Part shown: positions 29,092 through 40,561 of the stretch, one piece after another
Position numbering within the stretch: position 1 is the stretch's first letter
How the letters are laid out: every line of letters starts with the position of its first letter
Assembly (NCBI GenBank): GCA_014382695.1
Contig: JACNJF010000035.1
Coordinates: forward strand, 1 to 42,457
Length of the DNA: 42,457 nt
Direction of reading: 5' to 3'
Source of the DNA: Gammaproteobacteria bacterium
GTDB lineage: Bacteria > Pseudomonadota > Gammaproteobacteria > GCA-001735895
Translations under genes and position numbers: made by a program
Notes under the pieces: model-generated
Told to the model about the DNA's origin: nothing
Seen by the model: only the letters and a program-made list of their open reading frames with translations
The model's database searches: none

Positions 29092-30015
29092 TCAGGAGGG
29101 TAGAAAATCGATCGGATAGGTCACCTTCAGCACCGGAACGCTGCGGCTGGTAAACGAAAAGCTTTTGATTTTCGCGATCAGCCGGCTTTCCAGTCGGGCG
29201 TGCTTGAGTTCACTGGAGATGATCACGCAGTCGCTGACGCTGCCGTCCGGCTGGATCGTCAGTTCAACCACAATCTTGCCCTGTAATGAGGGGTCCTTGC
29301 GCAGTTCGCGGTTATAGATGTTAAAGATAGCGCCCTTGTTCTTTTGAAATACGCGCTCAATTTCTTCCTGACTGCGGATCGAACTGGCCGAGTTTCTGGA
29401 CGATGATTTGCTGGCCAACTGCTGCGTCGGAATGGTGCTTTTCACGCTGGTGGTTTTACGCGAAGCCAGTTCACTGCCGCTCAGTTGTCGATTCAGGGTA
29501 TCGGCCTGAATCCCGCCACTGCCCTGGGCAGCTGATGCCAGTAGATCTCGGGTGGAAGTCACGGTTTCTGCCTGCTTGCCGGCTTTTTGCTGCGGTTTAT
29601 CGGCGATATCGGAAAAATCAAAGCTGTCGCGTAGATCAGCCAGTTCATCTTTCAGCGCGATCAGGCCGGATTTCTGTGCGGTTTTTTTAGCGGCGGCGCG
29701 TTTATCGGCCTCGCTCAGCGGTTTTTTAACCTCGGCTTTTTTCGGGGCGTCTTTTTTCACCACCGGTTCTTCCTTTTTAATCACCTTCTGTAACGGTGGA
29801 GGAGGTGGTGGTGGAATGACTTTCTTTTCCATGATCAGCTTGGCCAGACGGGGTGCCACCTCGGCCAGTTCTTTTTTCTGCATGTCGGGTAACTGTATCC
29901 GGTTCATGACGAAGCCGGCAATGATAAACAGCACAATCAGTACGATGGCGAGTCGATTAAACAGGCGGTCTTCGCGACCTTCTACCCAGGGTAGTATGGG
30001 GTCCATAGGCTTCAT
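29092..30015 (-). CDS. TonB/AgmX-like energy transducer (AgmX/PglI-type C-terminal domain)
   Basis: Single N-terminal TM, IPPPPPPPLQKVIKKEE proline/lysine-rich linker, C-terminal EIERVFQKNKGAIFNIYNRELRKDPSLQGKIVVELTIQPDGSVSDC. Confidence 0.88.
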   Translation of the reverse strand: MKPMDPILPWVEGREDRLFNRLAIVLIVLFIIAGFVMNRIQLPDMQKKELAEVAPRLAKLIMEKKVIPPPPPPPLQKVIKKEEPVVKKDAPKKAEVKKPLSEADKRAAAKKTAQKSGLIALKDELADLRDSFDFSDIADKPQQKAGKQAETVTSTRDLLASAAQGSGGIQADTLNRQLSGSELASRKTTSVKSTIPTQQLASKSSSRNSASSIRSQEEIERVFQKNKGAIFNIYNRELRKDPSLQGKIVVELTIQPDGSVSDCVIISSELKHARLESRLIAKIKSFSFTSRSVPVLKVTYPIDFLPS

Positions 30016-30016
30016 C

Positions 30017-30514
30017 TTAACTTTCGCCTGCGCCAGCTTTCTGGTTAACCGCAAACGACAGGTTGGTGAATTCGGCGCCTGCACAGGTCAGCATTATTTT
30101 TTTAAGCAGCGCGTAAGGGATCTGTTTATCCGCCATGATGGTGACTGCCCGGTTATCGCTGATTTCGGTATTTTCAAGCGACAGCTTTTTGAGTGTGTCG
30201 AACAGCGGTTTGATTGTTTTGGAGTCGCTTTGCATGACGTCTTTAACCGCGATGATGTCGCTCCCCTGCAGGCTGATGAACTCATCGTTCACCGCTATGA
30301 CCAGGGTTTTGATCGGAGCCTGTTCGGAAATAGACTGCGGCAGTATGACGTTTTTCGGCGAAGGCAATACTTCAGCACTGGTCGCATTCACCAGCAGGAA
30401 AAATACCAGGATGGTAAAGATGTCCATCAGTGAAATCATGTTCAGCGATGCAATCCGGTCATTCTTTCTGGCATGATGGAGTTGCATACGTTTGGCGCGT
30501 CGGGACTGTTTCAT
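30017..30514 (-). CDS. ExbD/TolR-family protein with canonical Asp
   Basis: SLNMISLMDIFTILVFFLLVN TM with Asp; periplasmic domain. Confidence 0.9.
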   Translation of the reverse strand: MKQSRRAKRMQLHHARKNDRIASLNMISLMDIFTILVFFLLVNATSAEVLPSPKNVILPQSISEQAPIKTLVIAVNDEFISLQGSDIIAVKDVMQSDSKTIKPLFDTLKKLSLENTEISDNRAVTIMADKQIPYALLKKIMLTCAGAEFTNLSFAVNQKAGAGES

Positions 30515-30529
30515 AAGGTAATATCCTTG

Positions 30530-31027
30530 TTAGCGGGCCGCATCGCCGATTGAAATATCCGGAAATAACTCGGCCTGCACCATCTCGCCCTGATACAGGG
30601 TGCGGAACGAACGCGAATTATCCATCACCTGAATCAGGTCGTCGTAAAAGGTATCCGCTTCAGACAGGATGGTCAGGCTGGTATGCTCGGGGAAGCGAGC
30701 CTTAACCTGTTTCAGGGTCTGTTTCAGCACTGCGTAATTATGCCCCTGCTCAAGCTTTTCGATCTGTTTGATCAACCCACCCTTGTTATCGGATATGATC
30801 AGCGCCTGTTTACGGATGGTTACGCGTAACTCGAAAGGCGCATCATCCGCATCTGCAGCACTCTGACTGCCGGGTTTGGGCAGGTTCAGGTCAAGAATGG
30901 TGATATGCGAAAATACCGCCGTCATCAATAAAAAAGGTACCAGAACCACCATCAGGTTCATGAAAGCGGTGATGTTAAGCTCCACCGCCGGATGTTTGCG
31001 GCGCAGTCCTTTAATTCGTCTTGGCAT
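30530..31027 (-). CDS. ExbD/TolR-family protein with Asn replacing the TM Asp
   Basis: AVELNITAFMNLMVVLVPFLLMTAVF; codon AAC at 30958..30956 on the minus strand. Confidence 0.88.
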   Translation of the reverse strand: MPRRIKGLRRKHPAVELNITAFMNLMVVLVPFLLMTAVFSHITILDLNLPKPGSQSAADADDAPFELRVTIRKQALIISDNKGGLIKQIEKLEQGHNYAVLKQTLKQVKARFPEHTSLTILSEADTFYDDLIQVMDNSRSFRTLYQGEMVQAELFPDISIGDAAR

Positions 31028-31030
31028 TGT

Positions 31031-31669
31031 TTACTGCCCTGATCCTTTTTGACGGGTTAACTGATTGACAAAGCGTACCGTGGCCATTTCGATGCTATCG
31101 ATGATTTCCGTGGTTTTGGTTTGCAGCAGGGTATAAAACAGTAGCAGCGGAATTGCGACCATCAGTCCGAAAGCGGTGGTATTCATCGCCACCGAGATAC
31201 TGGTCGAGAGAATTTCTGCTTTCATCGAGGGGTCGACCTGGGCGACGGCAGTGAACGCCTTGATCAGACCGATAATGGTTCCAAGCAGTCCGAGCAGGGT
31301 GGCAATATTGGCAAACATGGCCAGATAATGGGTGCGCTTTTCCAGTCGTGGAATCGCTTCCATGATGCTTTCTTCCATCGATGCTTCAATATCATCGCGT
31401 CGTCTGGTCGCCGAAAAATTATTCAGGCCCTGTCCCAGTATCTTGCTGACGGTGGAATTCGACTCGCGGGTCAGCTGAATGACGCTGTTCATTTCGCCTT
31501 TTTCCAGCAACGGCATAATCTTGGCGAGTACTTTCTGATTGCTGCGCTTACAGGACGTTAGATAAATATAGCGTTCGATGGTGATCGTGACCCCGATCGC
31601 GAGTACCACCAGAATCGGGTACATGAACGGGCCTCCTGACTGAAAAAAGCGTATGACGGTATCAAGCAT
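31031..31669 (-). CDS. MotA/TolQ/ExbB proton channel family protein
   Basis: FFQSGGPFMYPILVVLAIGVTITIERY; IATLLGLLGTIIGLIKAF; ISVAMNTTAFGLMVAIPLLLFY. Confidence 0.95.
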   Translation of the reverse strand: MLDTVIRFFQSGGPFMYPILVVLAIGVTITIERYIYLTSCKRSNQKVLAKIMPLLEKGEMNSVIQLTRESNSTVSKILGQGLNNFSATRRRDDIEASMEESIMEAIPRLEKRTHYLAMFANIATLLGLLGTIIGLIKAFTAVAQVDPSMKAEILSTSISVAMNTTAFGLMVAIPLLLFYTLLQTKTTEIIDSIEMATVRFVNQLTRQKGSGQ

Positions 31670-31761: not shown

Positions 31762-32031
31762 TCAGGGTTTTTTTTCGCTGTAAATTTCATCGTAATAGTT
31801 CAGCTGTCGTTTGTATGTTGATCTTTTTAGTGGCTGTATCGGTTCATCCAGTACGCTGTCTATCGGGGGGGTGTCGACTACCACACGGTCAGCCGATTTC
31901 CACGGTACGATATACAGCACATTGGGTAATTCTTTGTTACCGATAATCGAGGTGCCCTGCATATCCAGGCGCTGTTCGGCCACACTCGTGGCGCTAAGCG
32001 TGATCAGTATCAATACGCTCAGGGTCTTCAT
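31762..32031 (-). CDS. 89-aa periplasmic hypothetical protein
   Basis: Signal peptide MKTLSVLILITLSATSVA; start overlaps the upstream TPR gene stop by 4 nt. Confidence 0.75.
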   Translation of the reverse strand: MKTLSVLILITLSATSVAEQRLDMQGTSIIGNKELPNVLYIVPWKSADRVVVDTPPIDSVLDEPIQPLKRSTYKRQLNYYDEIYSEKKP

Positions 32032-32675
32032 TGTTTTGTGCTGTCGATTCTGCGGCGTAAATCGATGATCCACTTTTCAACATCCTCATTGCTGTTGTTG
32101 GTGAGTTGCTGGTACTTCAGATATTCCTCCAGCGCCTTCGGTAGTTCCTGTAAATACAGATCCAGCAGTATCCCCAGATTGAGATGGGCATTGGCATATG
32201 CCGGGTCGGCATTAATCGCTTTGTAGTAATTGAACAAAGCCTGTTTAAAATCACCCTGCTGGCGCTGAATAATTGCCAGATGATTATAGGCGATAGCATC
32301 ATTTTTATCCTGTTGAATTGCTTTCAGAAAAGCTTCGGTGGCTAACGCCAGATCTTTTTCGTGCAGGTACAGCAAGCCCAGATTGGTATGCACTTTGGCG
32401 GGTGCCGGGTCGTGTTGCTGGAGGATTTTGAACTGCTCTATTGCCTGTTCGATTTTGCCGGCTTTGGAGTCTGACAGGGCCTGTTCAAACGGGGTTTGCG
32501 GTTTATCGGCGGTTTTATCCGGAGCGGGTAGCGCTGGCGCTGGTGTTATTTCAGGTTCAGGTTCTGATTTGGCCACGCCGGGTGCGGACTGACAGGCGCT
32601 CAGGCCGATCTGGAGCAGTGCAACTGCAACCAGACGGAGGATAAGACGGTAGCGGAATTTCGATTTAATCGGCAT
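32028..32675 (-). CDS. TPR-repeat lipoprotein (215 aa)
   Basis: Lipobox IGLSAC; TPRs PAKVHTNLGLLYLHEKDLALATEAFLKAIQQDKNDAIAYNHLAIIQRQQGDFKQALFNYYKAINADP. Confidence 0.9.
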   Translation of the reverse strand: MPIKSKFRYRLILRLVAVALLQIGLSACQSAPGVAKSEPEPEITPAPALPAPDKTADKPQTPFEQALSDSKAGKIEQAIEQFKILQQHDPAPAKVHTNLGLLYLHEKDLALATEAFLKAIQQDKNDAIAYNHLAIIQRQQGDFKQALFNYYKAINADPAYANAHLNLGILLDLYLQELPKALEEYLKYQQLTNNSNEDVEKWIIDLRRRIDSTKQ

Positions 32676-35484
32676 AACTCTCGGTCATTTCATTTTTGGC
32701 GTAGCGGAAAGGCAGCAGTTTCCCGAGCGCCTGCAGGCTTTTCCTGATCGACGCATCAAAGCTTCCAGCAGGAATACGTGCCAGATTGGACTCATGTATC
32801 TGAATCGACTTTTCTTCAAACGGATAGGCCTGATCTTCCAGTAGATAATTGTATTCTTCCAGTTCTTCGGCGTTCAGTTTATTCGGTCGCTCTGATTTTA
32901 ACAAAGCGCTGGCAAATTCACGATAAATTTCCGCCAGATTGAAAGTGGCAGCAGTTGTTACTTCTTCAACCTGATAGCGTGCCGCAGCGCTGTAGGCATC
33001 GATGGCTGACTTCATCAGGTTCTTTTTGATCGCCAGACTTTTCTTTAAGGGTGCGGTTAGACTCGCGTTAGAATAGCTTTTATGCAGCGGAGTGGTTAAT
33101 TCCAGGCTGGCCAGTGCTGCCAGATAGCGTGAGCGCTCGTTGCTTCGATCTTTAGCCGCGGCATCTGCACTAATGATTTCGCTGAGCCAGTGGTGGTGTT
33201 CGCGGGTGTTCCCCTTTGTGGCGTAAAACTGGGCAATTTTATGGCGTAGCTCGATACTGCGCGCAAGCGGATAGGGGAACTGCAGAATATAGGTTTTATA
33301 GATTTCGATGGCGCGTGCTTCTTCGCCCGCCTGCGTATAGTGCTCTGCCGCCTGCCATAACAGATCCTGTTGCTGCTCGGGAGGTCGGGTTTTAACCAGC
33401 TTGAGCAGTTCCTCGGCCGCATTCAGATGCTTGCCAGAACTGCTATAGGCCAGAGCCAGCTTTTCGGTGACGCCGAGCTCCCATTTGCCCTGGTCTTTGT
33501 GGTGAATTCGAAATCTTTCCAGTAATACGATGGCGGCAGGCCAATGTTGCAGGGTCGTATACTCGGTTGCAGCATCGTAATCGGCAATGATTCGGGTTGG
33601 AGAATCCGGTACCAGCTTGGCGACCCGGATAAAGTGCAGTGCGGCCTCACTATGCTTGCCCTGCGTGCGCGCCTGTTCACCCTGACGGTAAATGGATTGA
33701 GCCAGCTGTTCATCCAGGTTGAGCTCTTCTTTGGCATCACGCGGCCGCGTTTTAATGCTTTCGCTATAGGCCTGTTCGGCCAGGTCATAGCGCTTTTCCG
33801 CATACGCGGAATGTCCCATCACGACCCAGGCGCGGTGGTGGGTCGAGCGATCCAGTGACGGGTTGGTGACCAGCAGCTGGGTGACTTCCAGCGCTTTTAA
33901 ATACTCTTTTAGCGCATAAAAATTTTCTGCGGTTTTGATCAGAATGGCTGGCATTCGCGTGTCATAGGAAAAGCGATCACTGTAGAGCAAAGAGCTTTTG
34001 ATCAGGCGCTGGTTGACCAGAGATTTTTTTTCGAGAGCCGTTTGCTGATACAGACGGTCGTAGGCATAGAAAACGGCGAAGCCGGCTTCTGCACTGTGTT
34101 TATGCGTTGCATATTCATAGGCGGTTTTTTCGTATTCAAGAATGGCTTCTTCATACTGGGTTGCTTCGTACAGGGTTTCTGCGAGAAGAAAATTAATGCG
34201 GGATGCATCGCTATGTTGGGGAAAGGATTTCAGATGCAATTTATACCAGCTGGCAGCCACGGCATAATCTTCAATGTTGCCGGTTTTTCCAGCGACGGCA
34301 TGGTAATGGGTGGCGATATCGTACAGGTGGACAGCAAGCCGGGGCTTCAGGCTGCCCTGGGAATCGAGATCCTGCTGGCGCCAGAATGGCGTACCAATAT
34401 TGTAGAGTTTCACGAAGCGCTCTTTTTCCGGCAGGATGGATGAAGCAAATCCGGCCTTCTGCAGGCTGACGATGGCGCGGTCATGGAATAGCGGGGTGTA
34501 GCGTGAAAACGGATAAAACTCACCAAACCAGAGATAGATATCGCTCGCATCGCTAAACCTTTCCTGTCGCGTATAAAGCTCTCCCAGACGGCGATATAGC
34601 AAAGGTTCGTAAGGGCGTTTTCCATACTGATTAAAGTATTGGCTGAGAGGCTGACGATCCGGCAGATAGGAAAACGCCAGACTGGTGACCCGCAGCACGT
34701 CGTTCATCAACTCCTGTTCAACCCGGCTTAATGAGGCTGACAGCTCGAATTCCTCCAGCAGATACTGGCTTTGTTTCAGGTCCAGCAGACGAATATAGCT
34801 ATGTATCGCCTGCTCATAGTTATTCAGTTTGAACTGAGTCCAGCCCAGTTTGTAGAGGGATTTTTCAAAATAGATCGATTTCGGATGGTTGTTCACCACC
34901 ACCGCGTAGGCCTGTTCGGATTCGACGAAACGTCCGCTCACAAACAGGTTTTCGCCGCGCCGAAACTGCACTTCATCGATATAGCGTGAGTTCGGGAACT
35001 CGCTAGCGATTCGATCCAGGTAAAGATCGGCTTTGTCATTCTGGGAAGCGACCGCATAGGCTCTGGACAGCTGGTATAGAATTCGATCATTGTCGGCCTT
35101 GTCGGGATAGGTTTGCAGGTACTGTTCATAGCGCTGTATCGCGAGCTGGGCCTGCTGTTCCCCCTGTAACGCCAGCTCCGGGTTTTCCGACAGTTTATTG
35201 TCCATGCTGGTTTCCAGCTCCAGATCTGCCAGGCGTTGTACTTCCTTGCCGGATTTCTGGGCCGGAGGGCTGGCTTCTACCAGCTCCCGGTAGCTGTCCA
35301 GCAGTTGTTTATTGTCGATCTCAAAACTGACCTGTGGGTTGATCTCTTCGATGGTTGGAATCGCCACGGTTTCGAGTTCAATATCGGCAATACTGCCGCC
35401 GATATTATCGCTGCCGGTGGCACAGGCCTGCAGCACCAGCAGGCCTGGCAACAATAGCGTTAGCAGCTTGAGCGGCCGCATCAT
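32665..35484 (-). CDS. Large TPR-repeat lipoprotein (939 aa)
   Basis: Lipobox LVLQAC; many TPR-like helical repeats (e.g. YQLSRAYAVASQNDKADLYLDRIASEFPNSRYIDEVQFRRGENLFVSGRFVESEQAYAVVV). Confidence 0.9.
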   Translation of the reverse strand: MMRPLKLLTLLLPGLLVLQACATGSDNIGGSIADIELETVAIPTIEEINPQVSFEIDNKQLLDSYRELVEASPPAQKSGKEVQRLADLELETSMDNKLSENPELALQGEQQAQLAIQRYEQYLQTYPDKADNDRILYQLSRAYAVASQNDKADLYLDRIASEFPNSRYIDEVQFRRGENLFVSGRFVESEQAYAVVVNNHPKSIYFEKSLYKLGWTQFKLNNYEQAIHSYIRLLDLKQSQYLLEEFELSASLSRVEQELMNDVLRVTSLAFSYLPDRQPLSQYFNQYGKRPYEPLLYRRLGELYTRQERFSDASDIYLWFGEFYPFSRYTPLFHDRAIVSLQKAGFASSILPEKERFVKLYNIGTPFWRQQDLDSQGSLKPRLAVHLYDIATHYHAVAGKTGNIEDYAVAASWYKLHLKSFPQHSDASRINFLLAETLYEATQYEEAILEYEKTAYEYATHKHSAEAGFAVFYAYDRLYQQTALEKKSLVNQRLIKSSLLYSDRFSYDTRMPAILIKTAENFYALKEYLKALEVTQLLVTNPSLDRSTHHRAWVVMGHSAYAEKRYDLAEQAYSESIKTRPRDAKEELNLDEQLAQSIYRQGEQARTQGKHSEAALHFIRVAKLVPDSPTRIIADYDAATEYTTLQHWPAAIVLLERFRIHHKDQGKWELGVTEKLALAYSSSGKHLNAAEELLKLVKTRPPEQQQDLLWQAAEHYTQAGEEARAIEIYKTYILQFPYPLARSIELRHKIAQFYATKGNTREHHHWLSEIISADAAAKDRSNERSRYLAALASLELTTPLHKSYSNASLTAPLKKSLAIKKNLMKSAIDAYSAAARYQVEEVTTAATFNLAEIYREFASALLKSERPNKLNAEELEEYNYLLEDQAYPFEEKSIQIHESNLARIPAGSFDASIRKSLQALGKLLPFRYAKNEMTESYAD

Positions 35485-37355
35485 GGCTTCTTCCTGCTCT
35501 GGGTGGACAACTCATCGTACAGACGCGCCAGTGAGTAGCGTGCACTGAGCTGAAGTTGAGCGATGTGTTTTTTGCGCTGCTGCAATGCCGAAATTGCCAG
35601 CTGATTGATGTACTGTTGCTGACGAGGTATCAATTCATTGAGGGTGCTTTGCAGACGCTCGATTTCTGTTTCCTGCTGCTGTATGCGCTGGTTCAGGGCA
35701 TACAGTCTCTGTTCATAGCGCGCAGAGGCCTGTTGCACCGAAGCGGTGGACGCGGCCGCCTGTTGCAGGGCGCTATCGAGCTGCAGCAATTGCTGCTTTA
35801 GTTTCCAGAAGCGCGGCGCAAAGTCGGTACTGATGTCCCAGTAGAGCAGCCCATACAGCAGTCGGTATTGTTGCCTTTCCGTGCTCAGATCTCGATCCTG
35901 CGGTAATCGCGCGAGTAGTGCTTTCACTTCATCCAGCTGCGCTAGATGGTCGCTTTCAGACGCATTCGCCAGTGCCAGAAAATCCTGTTGCTGCTCGATG
36001 CGATTGACTTCCTCGGCCAGTGCGCTGCGCTGTTGCTGAAAACTCTCCAGCTGTTGCAGGTCAAGTGCCTGCAGTACCAGAGGTTGCTTGCCGGCAAAGG
36101 ACTGGCGGCGTTCATGCAGCATCAGTTTGAACGCCGGTATACTGTCTTTCCAGCGCGCAATGCTATCGGCTATTTCCTGCAGTTCACGGTATTGCTGGAG
36201 TGCCTGCTGGAAAGGGCTGGCGCTAATCGTCTGTTGCAGGGTGCTCAGGGTTTTGAACAGCAGCGGATCGCTTTTCAGTGTCGCAATTGCGCTGGCGCTG
36301 AGCAGACGGTCTTCGGGTAGCGCGGTATACAGCTGCAGGCGTGGAATACTGTTGATCATGTCATCCAGCTGGGTGGACTGTTGCTGATACAGCTTGACCG
36401 CAAGGTCATAGGCCTGAGCGGCCAGTGTCCTGTTACCGAGTTGTTCATAGGCACCGGCAGTCAGTAGCGAAGCTTCCAGCGTCGCGCGGTCGGGCTGATG
36501 GCGTTTGATCAGAAGCTGCCAGTAGGCGAGCGCTTTTTTGGCTTCATTCTTGCGGCTCCAGATGGTGCCGGTGGCGAGTAGTGCCTTGTTGGTAACCGGG
36601 CTCTGAATACTGATTTTACGCAATTGCGCCAGTGCATCATCGAGACGATTCTGGTTCATCAGGATTAATCCGGATACCAGATTGGCGGAGTCCTGCAACG
36701 CAAGCGTTTCCTTATCCGTGGTTTTGAGTGCTGACAGAGATTTAAGCCGTTGCAGACCTTTTTCAGTTTCCCGCGCCGCGATTTGTGCGATGCCGAGATT
36801 ATACTGTGCATAGGCATACCAGCTATCGCCTGCCTTGATCGCGGAAGCCGATGTGATGGCGTCGTCGAGCTGACCATTGTTCAGTTGCAGGCTGCTCTGA
36901 ATATAGTAACGCTGCGATTCCTGTTGAGCCGGTAGTGGCTGGAGCAGACGTGACAGGTAATCCTCCGCCAGCTCAAAATTTTCCTGCTCATATTCAACCC
37001 TGGCCAGATTAAACCAGACGTTGTGCTGCGTTTCAGGGGCGAGATTGTGCTCCAGCAGCTGATTAAAGATGAGTGCCGTTTGCTGCGGCAGGCCATACTC
37101 AAAATACAGGCTGGCTAATAGCAGATCGGCGTCAGCGCGTTGATTGTTGAGCATGTTTTTTTCGTCGGCTACTGTCAGTTCGGTAATCGCAGCGAGTTTT
37201 TTGTGCTGGAATAAATGGAACAGGGCCGTGCCATAGGCCAGGTCTTTAACCCTGGTTTCATGCCGGTCTTCCTGTGCTGAAAGCATGACGGGCATAGTTA
37301 ATACTATGCAGAGTGTGGTTTTCAGAAAGTAGTGACGGATAGAAATTCGCATCAT
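35481..37355 (-). CDS. TPR/coiled-coil periplasmic protein (624 aa)
   Basis: Signal peptide; repeats such as HNVWFNLARVEYEQENFELAEDYLSRLLQPLP; C-terminal coiled-coil rich in Q/E/R. Confidence 0.88.
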   Translation of the reverse strand: MMRISIRHYFLKTTLCIVLTMPVMLSAQEDRHETRVKDLAYGTALFHLFQHKKLAAITELTVADEKNMLNNQRADADLLLASLYFEYGLPQQTALIFNQLLEHNLAPETQHNVWFNLARVEYEQENFELAEDYLSRLLQPLPAQQESQRYYIQSSLQLNNGQLDDAITSASAIKAGDSWYAYAQYNLGIAQIAARETEKGLQRLKSLSALKTTDKETLALQDSANLVSGLILMNQNRLDDALAQLRKISIQSPVTNKALLATGTIWSRKNEAKKALAYWQLLIKRHQPDRATLEASLLTAGAYEQLGNRTLAAQAYDLAVKLYQQQSTQLDDMINSIPRLQLYTALPEDRLLSASAIATLKSDPLLFKTLSTLQQTISASPFQQALQQYRELQEIADSIARWKDSIPAFKLMLHERRQSFAGKQPLVLQALDLQQLESFQQQRSALAEEVNRIEQQQDFLALANASESDHLAQLDEVKALLARLPQDRDLSTERQQYRLLYGLLYWDISTDFAPRFWKLKQQLLQLDSALQQAAASTASVQQASARYEQRLYALNQRIQQQETEIERLQSTLNELIPRQQQYINQLAISALQQRKKHIAQLQLSARYSLARLYDELSTQSRKKP

Positions 37356-37385: not shown

Positions 37386-37910
37386 TTATTCCCAGATTCG
37401 CGTTTTAAATAGCGGCTGTTCCTTGGACGGGTCATCGATGATCTGCAGTTCGATAAACTGAGGGTCGCTGCCCTTTTCAATCTGGATATTTTCTCCGCGC
37501 CGATAATCACGTTTATTCGGTCCCTTGCCGCTAAAAATGGCAATAATTTCATGTTTTCCGGAAGCCAGGTTACCGATATACAGGCGTTGCACCCCGCCGC
37601 GCTTGAGTGCTTCCAGTTCACGCTCGGTATACAGATGGCTGGCGATGACTTTTTCATCGATTTTGAGCTGCACCGAGTCGAGGGTAAAAAGCTTGCCGGA
37701 ATCCATCGACAGAAAAACGCTGAACTGGGTGTTGGCAGGAAATAGCAGATCTTCTTCCAGAATAAACAGGTTTTTATTCAGTTTGAGCACATCGTTTTTC
37801 AGATCCTGAATATTTTGCTGCAACGCCGTCGCGGCATCCTGAGCGCTGGCATAGGGGCTGAATAGCAGGCTGAAGCATAAAAAGGCCGCAAGGCGGATGA
37901 TTTTACTCAT
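37386..37910 (-). CDS. 174-aa periplasmic hypothetical protein (coiled coil plus beta domain)
   Basis: Signal peptide ...FSPYASAQ; LQQNIQDLKNDVLKLNKNLFILEEDLLFP heptad pattern then beta-rich region. Confidence 0.8.
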   Translation of the reverse strand: MSKIIRLAAFLCFSLLFSPYASAQDAATALQQNIQDLKNDVLKLNKNLFILEEDLLFPANTQFSVFLSMDSGKLFTLDSVQLKIDEKVIASHLYTERELEALKRGGVQRLYIGNLASGKHEIIAIFSGKGPNKRDYRRGENIQIEKGSDPQFIELQIIDDPSKEQPLFKTRIWE

Positions 37911-37943: not shown

Positions 37944-38939
37944 TTAACCGGGGCTAGCCGGGTCAATCAATCCGGATGAATAGTGTACCACTCCGTTAGC
38001 ATCGATGATGACTGCTTCGATTTCATCGAGTGCATTAATCAGCTTCAGGCCCTGTTCCGGACCCAGTATAAACAGGGTGGTGGACAGCGCATCGGTAGTG
38101 GTTGCGTCCGGACCCATCACGCTCGCACTCCAGGCTGTATGCGCTGAGGTGCCGGTTTTCGGGTTGATTATATGATGAATGCGCTCGTTACCGGATAAAA
38201 AATAGCGCTCATAATCGCCTGAAGTTGAGATGGCGCTATCCGATAGTGGAATGCTTAACGCGATCTGCTGCTCCTGTCTGGGGTGCTGAATCCCGATCAT
38301 CCAGGGCCGACCCTGATGATCGCCCAGAATACGGCTATCCCCGCCGGCACTCACCAGAGCCTGCTGGATACCGCACTGTTGTAGTAGCAAAATAGAGCGA
38401 TCGACCGCATAGCCCTTGGCAATACCGCCCAGATCGATACGCATACCGGGTTTCGCAAATCGTACCGTTTGCTGTTGTAACAGCAGGTTTTTATAGTTGA
38501 TGGCGGGTAGTTGTTGCTGAATGGTCTGAGCACTTGGCTGCTGCTTCTTGCGGTAGTCGTAATAATAGCCGACCGAGGCAAAGCTAATATCAAACGCACC
38601 GTTAGAGAGTTCTGAAAAAGCAATCGATTTTTGCAGCAGGCTAAACAGTTCAGCGCTCACCTTAACCGCTTCAGTGGCGGCCAGTCGATTGATACGGGAA
38701 ACTTCGCTGTTTTCCTTGTACGGGCTCATCAGTCGGTCTATACGCTGCATTTCAGCAAATACTCGATCGGTACAGCGTTCGGCCTGGCGCGGGTCGCTAT
38801 GCCAGAGCTCGACATTCACCCGGGTGCCCATGACATCGAGGGACTGCTTATACCAGTCGGCACCGGCATGCGTGGCCAGCCCGGCCATGATTAAACCGGC
38901 CAGCCAGCCGTAACCGGTATTAACAACGGATTTACGCAT
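37944..38939 (-). CDS. apbE: ApbE-family FAD:protein FMN transferase
   Basis: Signal-peptide-like N-terminus; DLGGIAKGYAVDR, VSAGGDSRILG, STSGDYERYF, HHIINPKTG, TTDALSTTLFILG. Confidence 0.95.
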   Translation of the reverse strand: MRKSVVNTGYGWLAGLIMAGLATHAGADWYKQSLDVMGTRVNVELWHSDPRQAERCTDRVFAEMQRIDRLMSPYKENSEVSRINRLAATEAVKVSAELFSLLQKSIAFSELSNGAFDISFASVGYYYDYRKKQQPSAQTIQQQLPAINYKNLLLQQQTVRFAKPGMRIDLGGIAKGYAVDRSILLLQQCGIQQALVSAGGDSRILGDHQGRPWMIGIQHPRQEQQIALSIPLSDSAISTSGDYERYFLSGNERIHHIINPKTGTSAHTAWSASVMGPDATTTDALSTTLFILGPEQGLKLINALDEIEAVIIDANGVVHYSSGLIDPASPG

Positions 38940-38947
38940 AGGGTGGG

Positions 38948-40561
38948 TCAGGCTGACAGGGCTCCAAAAGCGGCATACAGATCGTAGGCGCTGCCCAGAC
39001 CATGATTGGTAAAGGTGCTGGCAAACTGGCCGATATCGCCGTTGAGTGACATGTAATTGAGTAATACGGTATTGACCAGCAGATTAACGTTGTTAGCCGC
39101 CGGGCTGGAGGATGTCACGACCGAAGCATCGGCAGAAAAGCGCCCGATCTGACGACCACTGATCAGGGGCGTGGGTTTGCTGACTGGATCGAACACCAGG
39201 ATGAATGAGCAGGCGGTGGATGAGTTATCGCCGGTCCACTGCCCTTTGCCGCGACCGCCCAGCGTGGTGCCGGAGTCGGCGGATTCATCACGCATCCCGT
39301 TGCTTGCCACCGAGCCATCACTGAACACGTAAATCATCAGCGGTTTATTCAGTCTGGCGGCGTAGTTCAGGCAGGCACCGATACAGCGTCCGGCGCGCAG
39401 ATCACGGTTTTCACCGGTGCGCCGGTCACCGGTATGGTAGTCGTAACCGCCCATGGTGATGCAGCCACCGGCAGAATAACCGTTCAGGACCATCTTCATC
39501 ACCGAGGCGGTTTTACGGAATTCGCCATCGCCATTCAGTTCGTCTGCAGTGAAGATAGACTGAATATCGGTATCCAGCAGTGGGTCGACCGGCACCCCGG
39601 CGAAGCGGTCTGCCAGATCGGCGGCTTTCAGGTAGCCACAACGTACCAGGTCTTTCACCACTTCGTCGCGCGTCAGGCCGGTATTTACGCTGCCGAGTTT
39701 AAGTTTCTTGTGGGTGATACGCGCCATCGATTCCATTACCGCCGTGACATCCGCCGGATTGCTCAGAATGGCGGTCAACTCACCGACATCCACCATGCCG
39801 GTGACGTCGCTCGGACGATCCACCTTGGTGGGGCGGAATTCCGGGTTGATCATGTTGGCGGGTGCCATCGAGTTGCCGCCGGAGTCACTGCTGCGTGATC
39901 CAATCAGGTCAACCACTGTACCCTTGCCGCCGGCCATCGAGATGCCATACAACGGGTTATGTGGATTATTGCCGGTATCGTTATCGGAGCGTGCCGGAAT
40001 CACACAGCCATCGACCCGACCCACGGCCACGCCAGCTTTTTCCAGTATGCCCTTCAGCATCGCGCTGTCGGCATGAAACTGCAGGCCCAGTTCAGCGTTG
40101 ACAAAATCATTGTTGATGCTGCCACTGAGCAGGCTGAAGTTGGTGGAGTCGAGTCCCGGCACCATATCGCCGGGTATGCCCATCTTGCTGTAACCTGCGG
40201 TGGTGATGCTGCCGTCATTCTGTCCGCCAGCCCCACCGACCAGTACATTGGAGCCGGCCAGATTGGCACCTCCGGCCAGGTCGAAGCAGATGAATGGAAC
40301 CTTGTTGCCGGACAGGCCGCCGAGTGAACAGTTGATGTCATTCGCGAGTGACTGAACATCAGAAGACAGCGCCGCATAGGCCTGATTAGGTGCGGTAAAC
40401 AGACTGAGTACGCCGCCGCTTAATATGGTCGCAGAGCCGCCCAGGAAACCCTGACGGATAAAATCGCGCCGCGTAACCGGACGCGCGTGATCACGATGAT
40501 ACAGCGGGGCATCAACAGGCAGGGCTGTTAGTTTAAATTTAGCTTTATGGGTCATCGTCAT
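38948..40561 (-). CDS. Tat-exported protein, divergent DUF1501-like
   Basis: Twin-arginine signal TRRDFIRQGFLGGSATILSGGVLSLF; GGYDYHTGDR...LNKPLMIYVFSDGSVASNG resembles the DUF1501 core layout. Confidence 0.75.
   Translation of the reverse strand: MTMTHKAKFKLTALPVDAPLYHRDHARPVTRRDFIRQGFLGGSATILSGGVLSLFTAPNQAYAALSSDVQSLANDINCSLGGLSGNKVPFICFDLAGGANLAGSNVLVGGAGGQNDGSITTAGYSKMGIPGDMVPGLDSTNFSLLSGSINNDFVNAELGLQFHADSAMLKGILEKAGVAVGRVDGCVIPARSDNDTGNNPHNPLYGISMAGGKGTVVDLIGSRSSDSGGNSMAPANMINPEFRPTKVDRPSDVTGMVDVGELTAILSNPADVTAVMESMARITHKKLKLGSVNTGLTRDEVVKDLVRCGYLKAADLADRFAGVPVDPLLDTDIQSIFTADELNGDGEFRKTASVMKMVLNGYSAGGCITMGGYDYHTGDRRTGENRDLRAGRCIGACLNYAARLNKPLMIYVFSDGSVASNGMRDESADSGTTLGGRGKGQWTGDNSSTACSFILVFDPVSKPTPLISGRQIGRFSADASVVTSSSPAANNVNLLVNTVLLNYMSLNGDIGQFASTFTNHGLGSAYDLYAAFGALSA

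Follow-up and report, generated by a model that had tools for sequence, protein, structure and literature searches.

A tandem ExbD pair with one presumed proton-carrying aspartate in an Agl-Glt-like core-complex motor of Gammaproteobacteria

The closest described counterparts of the locus analyzed here are the Agl-Glt systems. In Myxococcus xanthus, the motor AglRQS consists of one TolQ-like and two TolR-like subunits, as does the motor described below, and drives a GltG-linked machinery. Asp28 of AglQ is essential in this organism, and the D28N substitution abolishes gliding (PMC3858216). Whether AglQ and AglS form homo- or heterodimers has been stated as an open question (PMC9389320). An Agl-Glt "core complex" was also described from Gammaproteobacteria by Luciano et al. 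in 2011. Its function in these bacteria is given as unknown, and the core complex alone is considered probably not to drive gliding (PMC3169522). In rotary models of the wider motor family, two aspartates swap protonation states, with a rotation of 36 degrees per proton and 10 ions per turn (PMC9389320, PMC12215075). The transmembrane (TM) aspartate has been called absolutely required in the homodimeric ExbD, TolR and MotB (PMC12905483), and in MotAB its exchange for asparagine is used to imitate the protonated state (PMC9389320).

The window, that is, the whole stretch of 42,457 nucleotides that was analyzed, contains an operon with a motor of this composition. The features of the operon, in the order of transcription, are as follows; counts refer to 52 long loci from other gammaproteobacteria.

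37386..37910, minus strand: small periplasmic protein of 174 aa, with which the conserved block begins; 40/52 loci; no family match
35481..37355, minus strand: TPR and coiled-coil periplasmic protein, 624 aa; TPR families; 42/52 loci
32665..35484, minus strand: large TPR lipoprotein, 939 aa; TPR families; 45/52 loci
32028..32675, minus strand: TPR lipoprotein (GltE-like); TPR families; 44/52 loci
31762..32031, minus strand: small exported protein, 89 aa; 43/52 loci; no family match
31031..31669, minus strand: ExbB/TolQ/AglR-like channel subunit; PF01618, 103.7 bits; Thr131 and Thr165 as counterparts of the pore threonines
30530..31027, minus strand: ExbD1 (AglQ/AglS-like), 165 aa, with Asn24 at the position of the proton-carrying Asp; PF02472, 52.0 bits
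30956..30958, minus strand: Asn24 codon of ExbD1, AAC; direct reading and profile alignment to solved ExbD
30017..30514, minus strand: ExbD2 (AglQ/AglS-like), 165 aa, with the TM aspartate retained; PF02472, 57.1 bits
30422..30424, minus strand: Asp31 codon of ExbD2, GAC; direct reading
29092..30015, minus strand: GltG/GltJ-like force transducer; NF033768, 72.5 bits (cut-off 40); 52/52 loci

All 52 long loci contain ExbB, ExbD1, ExbD2 and the transducer, and the nine-gene block is complete in most of them. The nine genes keep a fixed order in most loci, in which the motor genes are flanked by those for three TPR proteins, two small exported proteins and the transducer. The transducer possesses one TM helix, a proline-rich linker and an AgmX/PglI C-terminal domain, and its match to the GltG equivalog model (59.4 bits, cut-off 650) is confined to this domain. 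The three TPR proteins are candidate counterparts of GltC, GltD and GltE, although the GltE-like TPR lipoprotein scores 33.4 bits with the GltE model NF033758, far under the cut-off of 225. Directly upstream of the block, the region 37944-40561 on the minus strand presumably encodes a flavin transferase of the ApbE type and a twin-arginine protein resembling DUF1501 members, relatives of which adjoin the block in 6/52 and 1/52 other loci, respectively. ExbB, ExbD1 and ExbD2 (30017-31669, minus strand) have a common reading frame, and only a TAA stop plus one to five codons lie between them.

The operon matches an Agl-Glt-type core complex. That complex likewise combines, within a single operon, one AglR-like and two adjacent AglQ/AglS-like genes with TPR proteins and a TonB-type transducer similar to GltG (PMC3169522). 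Outside the Myxococcales it is described as a single cluster with one extra gene, for which the 89-aa or the 174-aa gene is the candidate in the window; the passages covered do not take up the TM aspartate or an Asn in its place (PMC3169522). The reading in the earlier note needs correction in that the genes do not form an ordinary ExbBD/TonB system; they match an Agl-Glt-like core-complex motor. All Ton models score under their cut-offs (TonB 25.4 against 27.1 bits, ExbB 41.4 against 206, ExbD 23.7 against 123). Two further candidates were rejected: Tol-Pal, with equivalog scores of 74.5 against 221 bits for TolQ and 31.0 against 127 for TolR, and the Zorya defence system (ZorAB), for which ZorA1 matched with merely 15.6 bits over 35 residues and ZorB gave no match.

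Both ExbDs score above the PF02472 cut-off of 25.4 bits. The ExbD1 stretch reads VELNITAFMNLMVVLVPFLLM, with Asn24 within NITAFMNLMVVLVPFLLM, and the ExbD2 stretch reads LNMISLMDIFTILVFFLLV, with Asp31 within NMISLMDIFTILVFFLLV. The replacement of the essential Asp of ExbD1 by Asn, encoded by AAC at 30958..30956, had been noticed earlier, as had the Asp of the neighbouring gene, and both observations were confirmed. Codon 24 was read directly, and in a profile of ExbD1 orthologs Asn24 is a gap-free match to the Asp of the solved E. coli and Serratia ExbD. In ExbD2 the Asp31 codon is GAC at 30424-30422. The E. coli ExbD motif used in the original comparison requires correction, being NVTPFIDVMLVL and not NVTPFIDIMLVL. 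The alignment also speaks against the objection that a nearby acidic residue might align better in the TM helix. E16, the acidic residue at -8 from Asn24, has an acidic counterpart in canonical ExbD, which argues that no nearby acid substitutes for the Asp in ExbD1. The three remaining ExbD/TolR proteins of this genome all possess Asp. An AlphaFold model of ExbD1 alone (mean pLDDT 79.5, pTM 0.58) consists of a helix at residues 19-48 and a compact periplasmic domain. A PDB fold search with this model returned nothing at E < 0.001, with the ExbD periplasmic domain 8pek at rank 39 (E 0.039).

Relatives of ExbD1 were found in 32 of 41 genomes of the window's own order, where ExbD1 has Asn in all loci examined and every readable ExbD2 has Asp, and in 89 of 369 sampled genomes of the class Gammaproteobacteria. 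To avoid a bias towards Asn, the follow-up search used ExbB alone as the query. This ExbB subfamily is well separated, with members scoring at least 284 bits and all others at most 125 in a phylum sample. Among 216 non-redundant complete ExbB-ExbD1-ExbD2 operons of Gammaproteobacteria, the fixation of Asn raised as a check in the earlier note holds for the 200 with Asn in ExbD1, and it fails for 14 with Asp, all from one order, and two with Ser. These counts are not population frequencies, because low-scoring ExbB loci were deliberately included to find exceptions and most of the Asp/Asp operons came from there. ExbD2 has Asp in 215/215 readable operons, giving ExbD1/ExbD2 combinations of Asn/Asp in 199, Asn/unread in 1, Asp/Asp in 14 and Ser/Asp in 2. 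No readable pair among the 216 operons has lost the Asp from both ExbDs. In the first 126 operons, Asn24 is encoded by AAC in 80 and by AAT in 43. Its conservation in 200 of the 216 operons is far beyond chance. An isolated mutation, a sequencing error or a decaying gene would explain the loss of a catalytic residue and nothing more, and such explanations are effectively refuted, since 200 of the 216 independent operons encode Asn, both of its codons occur and the frames are intact. In some genomes (G177, G833, G810) this ExbB subfamily is represented two or three times, and the three copies of G177 are all Asn/Asp. A plasmid search with ExbB as the query gave no match.

The exceptions bear on the polarity of Asn and Asp. 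All 14 Asp/Asp operons belong to families f18, f182 and f300 of the single order, and their ExbD1 usually possesses the canonical VPMID motif where the Asn types have TAFMN. A proline at ExbD1 position 31, present in 194/200 Asn types, is absent from the Asp-type ExbD1. In the ExbB tree, the Asp/Asp operons are nested among Asn-bearing operons as two separate groups, but, the ExbB outgroup being distant, an alternative topology that unites all Asn/Ser operons is not rejected either (p-AU 0.074). The Asp-type ExbD1 branches first in the whole-length ExbD tree, and the tree of the periplasmic domain is without resolution. Based on these phylogenies, Asn may have been gained once and Asp regained later, or Asp may have been retained. 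ExbB P174, an otherwise conserved proline of the channel helix, is Thr or Ser in most Asp/Asp operons (L112, L215-L223). Two Asn-type operons (L235 and L236, from G809 and G804) have an intermediate-looking motif, in which both ExbDs possess a Pro at -3 and ExbB has Thr in place of Pro174. In addition, the Asp-bearing ExbD1 of L245 (G1119) has a TM helix, NLTSMIDFLTILVFFLLV, that resembles the TM helix of ExbD2, possibly as the result of gene conversion between the tandem copies.

ExbD1 and ExbD2 are adjacent in every locus with enough sequence and form separate families in the ExbD tree (support 98/98 and 99/98). The TM helix of ExbD1 is near-invariant, with N24, T20, L29 and L34 in 200/200 Asn-type operons, and that of ExbD2 is likewise near-invariant, as expected of helices packed in a pore and not of a decayed copy. 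In ExbB, Thr131 and Thr165 are invariant in 214/214 tabulated operons; their E. coli counterparts, Thr148 and Thr181, surround the two Asp25 (PMC6778125). These residues also bear on whether Asn24 is part of an altered ion path, in which another ion is carried or E16, or D18 where present, takes the place of the Asp in ExbD1. Although position 16 is indeed acidic and near-invariant (E/D in 196/200 Asn-type operons), canonical ExbD shares this acid, and the position precedes the site by about two turns. Moreover, position 18 is mostly Asn, with D18 in some operons, and the threonine ring is unchanged. An altered path of this kind seems very improbable.

Residues next to the key positions vary together. 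ExbD1-23 and ExbD2-30, each just before the key position, switch together with ExbB164, which adjoins Thr165. ExbB164 is non-Thr in 21 of the 22 operons with Ile or Val at ExbD2-30 and in 0/194 of the others. This co-variation is suggestive only, because only two to three independent changes fall on well-supported branches, and it would also be expected if each ExbD contacts ExbB separately. A tracking of the Asn/Asp state of ExbD1 by ExbB164 was also considered, and no Asn specificity is claimed because ExbB164 tracks ExbD1-23 and ExbD2-30 more closely. In a direct-coupling analysis of 215 operons (effective number 131, 529 columns), pairs between ExbD1 and ExbD2 were hardly more enriched than pairs between ExbD1 and ExbB and were not separated from the background, the sequences being too few.

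It is conceivable that the working motor contains a homodimer of ExbD2, with an Asp in each subunit, and that ExbD1, outside the pore or only transiently in it, acts as an adaptor in the periplasm, anchors to the cell wall or exerts negative regulation. The TM helix of ExbD1 would then be a plain anchor, and the Asp would be free to go. The loss of the catalytic residue from ExbD1 is consistent with this arrangement, as is the fact that the solved structures of ExbBD, TolQR and MotAB show homodimeric axles only. However, a plain anchor would not preserve Asn itself and the surrounding residues unchanged across hundreds of operons, nor switch with ExbB164 and ExbD2-30, and in 14 operons the Asp of ExbD1 has been retained or regained. 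An ExbD2 homodimer is consequently considered unlikely, with perhaps one chance in several. A heterodimer of ExbD1 and ExbD2 is a plausible fit to the gene order, the obligate pairing and the co-varying residues.

A second family of tandem ExbDs possesses the same combination of residues. As a class-wide baseline, the single ExbDs found by motif have Asp, and three tandem pairs are Asp/Asp (L289-L291). In the second family, the first ExbD has Asp and the second Asn in 15/15 pairs from 15 genomes (L305-L316, L321, L329, L332; also L286-L288 and L292), as in the pair SLTPLIDVVFIL (first) and NVLPLINVVFLL (second). The loci read in context have the order ExbB-ExbD-ExbD-TonB-like, and one adjoins a gene for a TonB-dependent receptor. 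In the ExbD tree, the Asn-ExbDs of this family (99/93) fall among canonical ExbDs, apart from the ExbD1 and ExbD2 of the core complex (97/92). The second family being unrelated, the phylogeny indicates that ExbD pairs with one Asp have evolved at least twice, in opposite gene orders. The interpretation first put forward is upheld insofar as the change is real, mostly fixed, always coupled to an adjacent ExbD gene that encodes the Asp, and paralleled by a second evolution; it needs to be qualified in that the change is not universal. An Asn-bearing ExbD partner is not mentioned in the literature covered.

The single ExbB gene common to two ExbD genes also allows for two motors, one with ExbB5 and two ExbD1, locked or non-conducting, and one with ExbB5 and two ExbD2, active, whose ratio would tune the activity. 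The ability of Asn to mimic the protonated state is in keeping with a locked form. A single mixed axle is, however, the simpler explanation both for gene pairs that are invariably adjacent and 1:1 and for the same pairing in the second family, and the coexistence of two homodimeric motors is regarded as improbable.

The preferred reading, held with slightly better than even confidence, is that this locus specifies the inner-membrane motor of a core complex of the Agl-Glt type. In this motor, five ExbB would make up the channel, enclosing a heterodimeric axle of one ExbD1 and one ExbD2 with a single protonatable site; the heterodimer, stoichiometry, proton count and outer-membrane target are deduced from sequence. 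Protonation and deprotonation would be limited to Asp31 of ExbD2. Asn24 of ExbD1 would occupy the place of the second Asp and, because it is neutral and capable of hydrogen bonding, act like a permanently protonated Asp. During each turn the lone site would pass every ExbB a single time, so that a turn would take 5 protons in steps of 72 degrees and not 10 protons. The movement would be relayed to the GltG-like transducer and to the TPR and lipoprotein partners, acting at the outer membrane. Whether the motor is an obligate heterodimeric 5:2 machine with one site, derived at least twice from homodimeric two-site motors and turning with 5 protons in 72-degree steps, is a more demanding proposal, advanced here tentatively and with somewhat less than even confidence. 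Since nearly all operons combine Asn or Ser in ExbD1 with Asp in ExbD2, and two non-Asp residues never occur in a readable pair, one Asp appears to be necessary and one sufficient. The 14 Asp/Asp operons indicate that a machine of this type need not be limited to one site. The essentiality of the Asp in characterized motors (PMC12905483, PMC3858216) would fit the one-site model only if one particular subunit bears the site.

Overall, many bacteria appear to possess an envelope-spanning, proton-driven motor in which the two central rods differ and only one bears the presumed proton-carrying acid. With the 5:2 motors ExbBD-TonB and TolQR-TolA it shares the threonine-ring channel (T131 and T165 are invariant), the ExbD fold family and a TonB-like transducer. 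These systems are homodimeric and contain two Asp (PMC6778125, PMC12215075), whereas of the two paralogous ExbDs in the window, the TM Asp expected in each axle subunit of such motors is present in ExbD2 and absent from ExbD1. Tandem ExbD1-ExbD2 Ton operons, as in Xanthomonas and Sphingobium, also contain two ExbD genes, but in Sphingobium SYK-6 both tandem ExbDs keep Asp25, unlike the pair in the window (PMC8599685). In PVC bacteria, a TPR gene accompanies a tolQ-like gene and a pair of dissimilar tolR-like genes, which resembles the arrangement in the window, although the transducer is of the vWA type; loss of the Asp is not mentioned in the passages covered (PMC12204202). If the proposal of an obligate one-site motor is true, rotation would not require the cycle of two alternating aspartates that is assumed for MotAB, ExbBD and TolQR. 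The natural one-Asp pairs, with their Asp/Asp relatives as controls, make the two-site assumption directly testable. Likewise, the question of whether AglQ and AglS form homo- or heterodimers becomes testable in a simpler system, one that differs from AglRQS in that a review gives Asp in both AglQ and AglS (PMC9389320).
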